From: Lentisphaerae bacterium WC36 | GTDB lineage: Bacteria > Verrucomicrobiota > Lentisphaeria > Victivallales > SZUA-371 | NCBI GenBank assembly: GCA_020683205.1 | Contig: CP085689.1 | Coordinates: 2,288,230-2,352,229, forward strand | Direction of reading: 5' to 3' | DNA: 64,000 nucleotides | In this document: piece after piece, positions 57,403-60,831 of the stretch | Numbering within the stretch: the stretch's first letter is position 1 | Layout of the letters: every line of letters begins with the position of its first letter | Translations under genes and position numbers: made by a program | Notes under the pieces: model-generated | What the model was told of the DNA's origin: nothing | The model's database searches: none | Seen by the model: the letters and a program-made list of their open reading frames with translations, nothing else

Positions 57403-57443
57403 TTTTCTATTCCTTATTTTTTTTGGTTAATTGTTTAAAGTTT

Positions 57444-57473
57444 GGCGGGGTTTTACACCGCCCACCACAGTGT
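57444..57473 (-). repeat. Leader repeat copy C (pseudoknot-like, imperfect)
   Basis: On the - strand the segments run ACACTG, GGTGGG, CGGTGT, CCGCC: a-b-a'-b' order with one mismatch in each stem. The tail CCGCCAAACTTTAAACA is the same as in copy A. It lies in the 5' leader of the 57217-57402 gene. Confidence 0.6.
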
Positions 57474-57752: not shown

Positions 57753-57796
57753 TGTTCATAAATCCTTAATTTTTAGTTTTAATTTCTTAAACGGTT

Positions 57797-57826
57797 GGCG
57801 GATTTTTACACCGACCGCCACGGTGT
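57797..57826 (-). repeat. Leader repeat copy B (pseudoknot-like)
   Basis: On the - strand ACACCG (a), GGCGG (b), CGGTGT (a') and CCGCC (b') occur in interleaved order. a pairs with a' and b with b', as in an H-type pseudoknot. All pairs are perfect. It lies in the leader of the 57489-57752 gene. Confidence 0.65.
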
Positions 57827-57868
57827 CAAGGTATGTGCTTTTTCTTCTAGCCGTTGCACGCCCTACTT

Positions 57869-58045: not shown

Positions 58046-58122
58046 ATTATTTTTATTTTTTTGTATAGCAGAGCTATAAAAATAATCTAAAAAATCACTG
58101 CTTAAAAATCTGTTTAAAGTTT

Positions 58123-58152
58123 GGCGGGGTTTTACACCGACCGCCACGGTGT
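58123..58152 (-). repeat. Leader repeat copy A (pseudoknot-like)
   Basis: The same 30-base element as copy B with the same perfect interleaved stems (ACACCG/CGGTGT and GGCGG/CCGCC). It lies 18 bases after the stop of the 58170-58322 gene. The stretch 57753-58169 holds no convincing frame, only this repeat family. Confidence 0.65.
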
Positions 58153-58169
58153 CAAAAAAAGGGTAAATC

Positions 58170-58533: not shown

Positions 58534-58905
58534 ATGTCAAAATTCGGAACAAAACTAAAGCAAAATATTAAATTAGCTGGCTTGACCAATATTGAGTTTG
58601 CAGAAAAAACAGGATTGTCTGCAAATTATGTTTCAATTTTAATTAACGATAATACTAGATTGCCAAAGCTTGACAATTTTAATAAAATGTTAGAAGTTTT
58701 AGAACCTAGAATTTCAACTGACGACTTTTTAGACTTATCTCAAATCTATACCGTTGAAAAATTTGGGCTTGCAAATAATAAATTGATTAACGACCTTTCA
58801 GATGAAGAGCAAAATGTTATTAATAGCTTTAAATTATTAACTGACCACCAGCAATTTTTAATTAAAAGCCAAATTGAAGAGTATAGGCGTTTAAATTTAA
58901 AATAA
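58534..58905 (+). CDS. CI-like Xre-family repressor
   Basis: A 123-residue protein. N-terminal HTH_3: GTKLKQNIKLAGLTNIEFAEKTGLSANYVSILINDNTRLPKLDNFNKML. The C-terminal 50 residues are a helical dimerisation part (DLSDEEQNVINSFKLLTDHQQFLIKSQIEEY) without the S24 protease. Induction must therefore use another route than LexA-style self-cleavage. It faces away from the leftward early operon, the classic immunity-region layout. Confidence 0.85.
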   Translation: MSKFGTKLKQNIKLAGLTNIEFAEKTGLSANYVSILINDNTRLPKLDNFNKMLEVLEPRISTDDFLDLSQIYTVEKFGLANNKLINDLSDEEQNVINSFKLLTDHQQFLIKSQIEEYRRLNLK

Positions 58906-59031
58906 CTCTGTATAACTTGATTGATTGGATCATTAATACAGTTTTGTGTTAGTCGTCTTTTTGGGTGTGTAAATTGCGACAAAATAGATTTTAAAAAACT
59001 CATAGTGTAACTTCCTAATTTAGATAATTAA

Positions 59032-59061
59032 TTGAAATTTTGAGCTTTTTAAAATTATAGA
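59032..59061 (+). promoter_or_regulatory. Promoter of the structured RNA
   Basis: -35 TTGAAA (59032-59037), 18-base spacer and -10 TATAGA (59056-59061; TTATAG with 17). The expected start falls at 59064-59070, exactly where the paired structure begins. Confidence 0.5.
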
Positions 59062-59063
59062 AA

Positions 59064-59216
59064 GTCGGGCGTTTAGAACCTCTGCACCAAACGATCAGAG
59101 TATGCAACTTTTCCACAAGGGTATTGTATAGCTGCATCCACCCGACAAATATAGCAGTCGGCACGCAAAAATATTGCGTGTATGTTTGGTTATTTTACGG
59201 GTTCTAAACCGCATTT
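59064..59216 (+). ncRNA. Free-standing structured RNA, family unknown
   Basis: A stem GTTTAGAACC/GGTTCTAAAC (59071-59080 with 59200-59209) closes a second stem ACCAAAC/GTTTGGT (59086-59092 with 59184-59190). Inside are three hairpins: ATGCA..TGCAT (59102-59137), CCGAC..GTCGG (59142-59161) and CACGCAA..TTGCGTG (59162-59180). CTCTG/CAGAG (59080-59100) is an alternative stem that would put ACCAAAC in a loop. A T6 run follows the closing stem and a promoter precedes it. No frame fits. It does not match tRNA, tmRNA, 6S, SRP or RNase P RNA. Flanking 58906-59063 and 59217-59628 hold no gene. Confidence 0.65.
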
Positions 59217-59628
59217 TTTAACTTAACTTATTTTATCAGAATTTCAATTTTTCCAATAAAATTATAATATAAAAAGCTCGCTTGATTTAAAAACTTTTAA
59301 ATTTTGCAATTTTTTACATAATTTTCTCCTATTGTTAAATTCCCCCATAATTTAGATTATACTACTTTATTTAGTATTGCAAATAAAAATTGTAAACTAT
59401 TGATTGTAAAAAACTTATCAAACTTATAACAGTCTAAAACGTTAAAATATCTAACCATAATTAACAATTTTATAATCAAAATATTAGAAAGATAAACTAA
59501 AAAATATTAATCTAATCTAACAAATAATTTAAGTTTAATATTATTTAGCATATAAATATTTGCTTTTATACTCAATTTAAACTATTTTAGACAATTCATT
59601 TAATAAATTAAAACAACAAGAGGTGAAT

Positions 59629-60181: not shown

Positions 60182-60207
60182 TTGAACAATGTTCGAACAT
60201 TGTTCAA
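60182..60207. repeat. 26-bp perfect palindrome
   Basis: Half-site TTGAACAATGTTC read identically on both strands, followed by related TGTTCGAA and TGTTCGAACA boxes to 60232. The same GAACAATG core returns at 60341-60394. Probable binding sites of a dimeric regulator or initiator. Confidence 0.6.
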
Positions 60208-60217
60208 GATATGTTCG

Positions 60218-60255
60218 AAAAGTGTTCGAACACCGTGTTAAAACACTTTTATTTT
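60218..60255 (+). terminator. Terminator of the small membrane-protein operon
   Basis: AAAAGTGTT (60218-60226) pairs with AACACTTTT (60242-60250), continuing into ATTTT. It overlaps the palindromic boxes, so binding there could influence termination. Confidence 0.5.
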
Positions 60256-60340
60256 GCAACAACAAAAAAATTACTTTTTCACTAAAAACTTACTTCTTTA
60301 CAAAATTACTCTGTTAATTTTTGAGGTTAATTTAAACTAA

Positions 60341-60394
60341 TTGAACAATGCTCGAAATATGTTTGAACAATGTTCGAACAATGCTTGAACAATC
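60341..60394. repeat. Phased GAACAATG repeat array (iteron-like)
   Basis: GAACAATG at 60343-60350, 60365-60372 and 60376-60383, and GAACAATC at 60387-60394: spacings of 22, 11 and 11 bases, i.e. on one face of the helix. Three AAAGTC copies follow directly. The remaining stretch to 60831 holds no convincing gene. Confidence 0.6.
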
Positions 60395-60831
60395 AAAGTC
60401 AAAGTCAAAGTCAAATAATATTAAAGAAAATATATATACAAAAGAAAAAAATTAAATCAATCAAAAACGAAAAAACAAAAACTGTTGCGGTGAAATTATT
60501 TTATTGATCCAAAATCTCAAAAAACATCAAAATATCATAAAATTCAAGATTTATGCCGTTTTAGTTATTTTTTTAAAAAACGTAAATAAAGCGATTTTAA
60601 GCCCCTGTTCTCCCTTTTACAATAAAAGTATCATAAAACTTTAAAAACTCTCTCAAATTGGCTAAAATAGACATTTAAAGGCATTTTTAATAGTAAACAC
60701 AATGACAATTTTTAATCACATAAAAACCCATATAGTTTAAATTTAACAACTAAAAGACAATTAAACACTTGACTTTTGAGCTTTTTTAAACTATTTTATG
60801 ATTAAAGAAAAATTAAATTATTGGTTGTAAG

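Follow-up and report, generated by a model that had tools for sequence, protein, structure and literature searches.

In phages P1 and P7, c4 is a short phage RNA that carries two specificity patches and keeps an antirepressor gene off (PMC5320573, PMC12197685); the P1 c4 RNA blocks translation of the antirepressor (PMC5320573). The CI RNA of phage P4 is processed and pairs with an upstream leader (seqA), resulting in transcription termination, and IsrK of Gifsy-1 is a terminated leader RNA that lies before an antirepressor operon and is complementary to the read-through transcript (PMC4825925). In the literature, the Rfam family RF02221 (sRNA-Xcc1) is taken to be an sRNA that serves virulence or acts in trans (PMC2996969, PMC12444791, PMC12189769), and a search of the literature covering non-subscription journals found no paper that ties it to the control of leaders or antirepressors.

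The window analyzed here is a 64,000-nt stretch of the genome of Lentisphaerae bacterium WC36, and the region of interest sits in a tailed prophage with terminase, portal, head protease, tape measure, and integrase genes. By analogy with RF02221 loci, the minus strand of this region quite probably encodes a compact immunity RNA module with self-recognizing pairing through two patches, A and B; in this module (59216–59060), a leader with hairpin A and patch B would be followed by an RF02221-type three-way-junction RNA. The family match, the two-patch pairing, the covariation, and the layout are computed results, and the pairing is well supported.

The RF02221 match and the strand of the RNA

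The features of the locus, in window coordinates, are as follows.

58534–58905, plus strand: CI-like XRE/HTH_3 repressor gene (HTH_3, E 5.9e-6), convergent with the predicted minus transcript and different among the five copies
58746–59003, minus strand: open reading frame in the slot of the antirepressor gene, with Shine–Dalgarno sequence AGGAAG and ATG at 59003, running antisense into the HTH gene
58900–59560, no strand assigned: shared 660-bp block common to five copies, 89–94% identity
59055–59147, minus strand: RF02221-type RNA (cmscan) with P1 (GUCGGG/CCCGAC), P2 with the conserved AUACAAUACCC, P3, and J3/1
59071–59080, minus strand: J3/1 segment GGTTCTAAAC, predicted to pair with patch A
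59080–59100, minus strand: P3 hairpin, with loop GTTTGGT (59092–59086) predicted to pair with patch B
59119–59129, minus strand: conserved RF02221 core AUACAAUACCC
59162–59180, minus strand: leader hairpin 2 (CACGCAA/TTGCGTG), in the slot of the terminator in canonical leaders
59184–59190, minus strand: leader patch B, ACCAAAC, complementary to the P3 loop
59198–59211, minus strand: leader hairpin A, whose loop holds patch A, GTTTAGAACC (59209–59200), complementary to J3/1
59314–59330, minus strand: start-stop mini-ORF in the leader with a strong Shine–Dalgarno sequence (AGGAG..ATG TAA), in five of five copies
59356–59383, minus strand: promoter-like TTTGCA-16-TATAAT, a candidate leader start with 10 of 12 matches, from a consensus scan only

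A preliminary description of positions 59032–59216 had proposed an unrecognized structured RNA, transcribed from the plus strand as a free-standing sRNA with its own promoter and terminator. The Infernal search of Rfam that it recommended (cmscan, 451 bases against all Rfam) returns RF02221 at 59147–59055 of the minus strand with 36.5 bits (E 7.3e-5), below the gathering score of 53 bits, and the RNA is thus recognizable, if under the curated cut-off. The five copies in the genome score 33.7–43.4 bits against RF02221 (E down to 6e-5), none reaching 53, and in all five the model is aligned over its full length (1–87) on the corresponding strand. The P1/P2/P3 three-way-junction fold with its AUACAAUACCC core is present in the window copy, as is the family's arrangement, with leader patches A and B ahead of the RNA and the gene slot after it. 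The window RNA is a divergent, compact variant of RF02221, an RNA family that is widespread in phages and that Rfam lists as a plant-pathogen sRNA; it differs in its apical loop (CCCUUGUGG, where the family has CCCGNAAGGGG), in its sub-gathering score, and in lacking both the leader terminator and the downstream antirepressor gene.

The stems first described are present. Of the two nested long-range stems, one is GTTTAGAACC/GGTTCTAAAC (59209–59200 with 59080–59071) and the other ACCAAAC/GTTTGGT (59190–59184 with 59092–59086); the CTCTG/CAGAG stem described there as an alternative, its loop holding ACCAAAC, is helix P3 of RF02221, and, as stated there, no frame in the structured stretch has support as a coding frame. 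Window pairing amounts to 10 bp between patch A and J3/1 and 7 bp between patch B and the P3 loop, a score of 17 that none of 5000 Markov shuffles reached. A third complementary patch, CCGAC/GUCGG, exists but is invariant, and hence provides no evidence of pairing.

Over 59032–59216, the plus strand folds slightly more stably (−53.7 kcal/mol, z −4.3, with 0 of 200 shuffles equally stable) than the minus strand (−50.2 kcal/mol, z −3.9), and a T6 run does lie behind the closing stem, both of which would suit a plus-strand sRNA. However, the stem before this T6 run has a loop of more than 100 nt, which leaves a plus-strand terminator unsupported, and the sole plus-strand promoter candidate, TTGAAA-18-TATAGA (59032–59061), falls below the criteria of a consensus scan that, in this AT-rich stretch, finds 25 promoter-like sites per 2.5 kb versus 17.1 in shuffles. 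Inspection of the alignment also points to a candidate intrinsic terminator of the HTH mRNA at about 58925–58965. Variant pairs retained through a one-sided change are G–U on the minus strand and would be A–C on the plus strand, an argument based on approximately four events. Since the Rfam match, which is found on the minus strand only, the G–U pattern, and the gene-side layout all indicate the same strand, the RNA is likely encoded on the minus strand, and a free-standing plus-strand sRNA is very improbable. The earlier proposal was right that this is a structured phage RNA, that it lies in an immunity region, and that its pairing is of the antisense type; the strand and the RNA's own promoter and terminator are either wrong or unsupported.

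Covarying patches across RF02221 loci

Two pattern scans yielded 227 usable RF02221 loci, of which 167 are non-redundant. A BLAST search of phages with the Rfam RF02221 consensus retrieved Aaphi23, Rac-SA53, and Stx-type phages, together with Pasteurella, Moraxella, Acinetobacter, and Bordetella phages. Across seven inspected phage loci, the RNA lies directly upstream of the next gene on the same strand, and six of these genes are annotated as antirepressor or KilA-N. The next ORF starts approximately 44 nt past the RNA. Among 145 downstream ORFs, the leading Pfam domains are Bro-N (31), P22_AR_C (17), KilA-N (15), Rha (13), and AntA (10), with ORF6N also among the dominant domains and SymE occurring once, and their PHROG matches are mostly anti-repressor families of up to 45 members each.

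The leaders of these loci share one order: first a hairpin whose loop holds patch A, the complement of J3/1; second, patch B, the complement of the P3 loop; and third, a hairpin that resembles a terminator and has a T run. A two-patch score of at least 12 is found in 126 of the 167 loci, versus 6.7% of 1824 allele-swapped pairs, and a score of at least 14 in 102 loci versus 7 of the 1824; the loci comprise 104 distinct A/B combinations. The terminator-like hairpin and T run are present in 110 of the 126 two-patch leaders, mostly 42–59 nt past the start of patch A, where shuffles lead one to expect 2.2. A second A+B copy downstream of the RNA reaches a score of at least 12 in 98 of 167 loci, versus 45 of 2133 swapped pairs (2.1%), and in 68 of 81 cases the downstream patch B lies at a Shine–Dalgarno sequence with a start codon behind it. 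Because of these covarying patches, leader terminators, and A+B copies at ribosome-binding sites, RF02221 looks like a c4/P4-CI-type immunity RNA rather than a virulence sRNA, and its simplest reading would be a self-recognizing antisense RNA that stops transcription of its own leader and blocks translation of the antirepressor.

Xanthomonas, Rhodanobacter, and their relatives account for most of the loci in which the downstream copy is missing. Ten such loci with an upstream target only were noted in Xanthomonadaceae and Rhodanobacteraceae (L031, L037, L058, L061, L067, L080, L090, L125, L041, and L089), and in ten xanthomonad loci of this upstream-only kind, the genes behind the RNA match no Pfam or PHROG family. 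A Neisseria gonorrhoeae locus (L022, 2700–3280) holds a second, weaker RF02221 unit approximately 225 nt past the start of the first; its record is 2.17 Mb long and is labeled a plasmid despite this chromosomal size.

RF02221 loci resemble c4 (RF01695) as short phage RNAs with two patches, one of them at the ribosome site of an antirepressor gene, but differ in having targets on both sides of the RNA; the RF01695 model has no match in the window at E values up to 10 (cmscan). The c4 RNA is further characterized by RNase P processing and by a translational block of ant. RF02221 loci share with P4 CI and its seqA/seqC sites the leader pairing and a second complementary site downstream. P4, however, regulates replication genes, and in the window the upstream complementary site of this layout is present, whereas the downstream site and terminator, found in most canonical phage loci, are absent. 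Gifsy-1 IsrK and orf45-anrP (RF01394) likewise have a leader RNA ahead of an antirepressor operon, but IsrK is a translation activator; the RF01394 model has no match in the window region at E values up to 10, and a phage leader scores only 10.9 bits (E 6.4). An integron attC site was set aside by inspection, as the boxes come in inverted order and RF02221 lies mainly at phage antirepressors.

The five copies and their surroundings

The genome carries five RF02221-type copies, that of the window and four more. The 660-bp block that contains them occurs five times, distributed over four related prophage regions; its start coincides in every copy with the stop codon of the HTH gene, while the HTH genes themselves differ. 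Such conservation as DNA could reflect a replication origin, a packaging site, or a recombination site whose inverted repeats act at the DNA level, but the covariation with G–U pairs, the RNA family match, and the like arrangement upstream of antirepressor genes render this explanation highly improbable. In one prophage (L011, 4987–6992), two units of HTH gene and RNA stand in tandem with different A and B alleles.

Covariation among homologues, whose absence the preliminary description had named beforehand as refuting its proposal, is present: the five-copy score is 0.200 versus 0.119, none of 500 shuffles reaches it, and five pairs have changed on both sides. Sister-copy patch B alleles (ACTAGATA and ACCAAAGA) match their own P3 loops, no leader pairs better with a sister RNA than with the RNA of its own copy, and the A/B combination is different in all five copies. 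Variable columns are concentrated in the patches (15 of 32, versus 51 of 496 in the flanks, p 7e-7), with variability not significantly higher than in the rest of the RNA (p 0.09). This patch variability fits a diversification of specificity among co-resident prophages.

The window copy has no T run after leader hairpin 2, and the window-type copies possess no leader terminator; no A+B copy is found at a downstream ribosome site in the window, where the region before the start codon is near-invariant. An antirepressor gene is likewise absent from the locus. With terminator, ribosome-site target, and gene all missing and a family score below threshold, the block might be a decaying, non-functional leftover copied along with the repressor module. 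The compensatory changes among the five copies, which affect patches A and B and also P2, and the diversification of the patches between near-identical flanks argue against decay, and this explanation is decidedly unlikely. The candidate leader promoter TTTGCA-16-TATAAT is kept among the copies, with the last base of its second hexamer altered in two of the five.

The leader could alternatively control a small protein translated from the ATG at 59003 (MSFLKSILSQFTH...), acting as a short antirepressor against the neighboring CI-like repressor. The AGGAAG and ATG lie near the usual antirepressor start position, and the frame is open for 85–150 codons in all five copies. However, the codon changes in the part shared by the copies are mostly non-synonymous, the antisense open length is as codon usage predicts in four of the five copies (P 0.036 in the window), the ORF matches no Pfam family, and no relative of the peptide beyond its own genome reaches a significant E value. 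The ORF is probably not a conserved protein and shows no sign of selection at the protein level, and the small-protein reading appears fairly unlikely.

Homologues of the compact version outside its own genome were not found in the genomes and viral contigs searched, which counts against the reading as an immunity module. A nucleotide search of the window region against phages and plasmids gave no match; relatives among 100 genomes of the host order, and RF02221 among 137, were confined to the window's own genome; and viral contigs contained neither the compact version (pattern scans) nor relatives of the HTH protein. Within the genome, the A+B alleles of the window and sister copies gave only self hits and background as trans targets, none at a ribosome site.

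Several further observations concern the surroundings. The sole Bro-N gene of the genome lies elsewhere, without an RF02221 match, and a relative of the window HTH repressor (36% identity; G000:C1:276703-277065), located at a different site of the genome, is similarly without one. A repeat of approximately 45 nt, GGCGGGG-TTTTACACCG..CCGCCACGGTGTC, separates small genes at 57429–57473, 57787–57829, and 58106–58153 and also occurs in sister prophages, and several GTTCGAACATTGTTC-type palindromes lie downstream of the 660-bp block (60185–60400).

A candidate mechanism and its meaning for the family

We infer that the RNA is transcribed from the minus strand, processed, and active in repression. 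By analogy with the 167 RF02221 loci, it would be made by the resident prophage and cut, or end, as a stable species of approximately 88 nt, with J3/1 and the P3 loop serving as antisense to the two leader patches. Through A and B, the RNA would then pair with the nascent leader of the operon to which it belongs; in most phages it would pair, in addition, with the A+B copy located at the antirepressor gene's ribosome site. Pairing would keep the lytic (antirepressor) transcript silent, and the resulting immunity would be allele-specific.

The least certain step concerns the output in the window, which would most likely be the minus transcript itself. This transcript, if made, would enter the CI-like repressor gene antisense and head toward the Cro-like and early genes. 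It is conceivable, though tentative, that antisense transcription has replaced the antirepressor protein, with the RNA gating a head-on minus transcript that is itself the antirepressor, and that a private A/B code would provide each prophage with an independent switch.

In the annotation of many pathogens, RF02221 appears as a virulence sRNA whose targets are guesses. The window copies contribute a compact form that comes without an antirepressor gene, from a host order whose other searched genomes lack the family. Covariation links RF02221 with the leader it belongs to and, at most phage loci, also with the ribosome site of the gene next to it, frequently one for an antirepressor, which would provide a testable mechanism for the whole Rfam family and a rule to predict which prophages share, and which escape, each other's RNA immunity.
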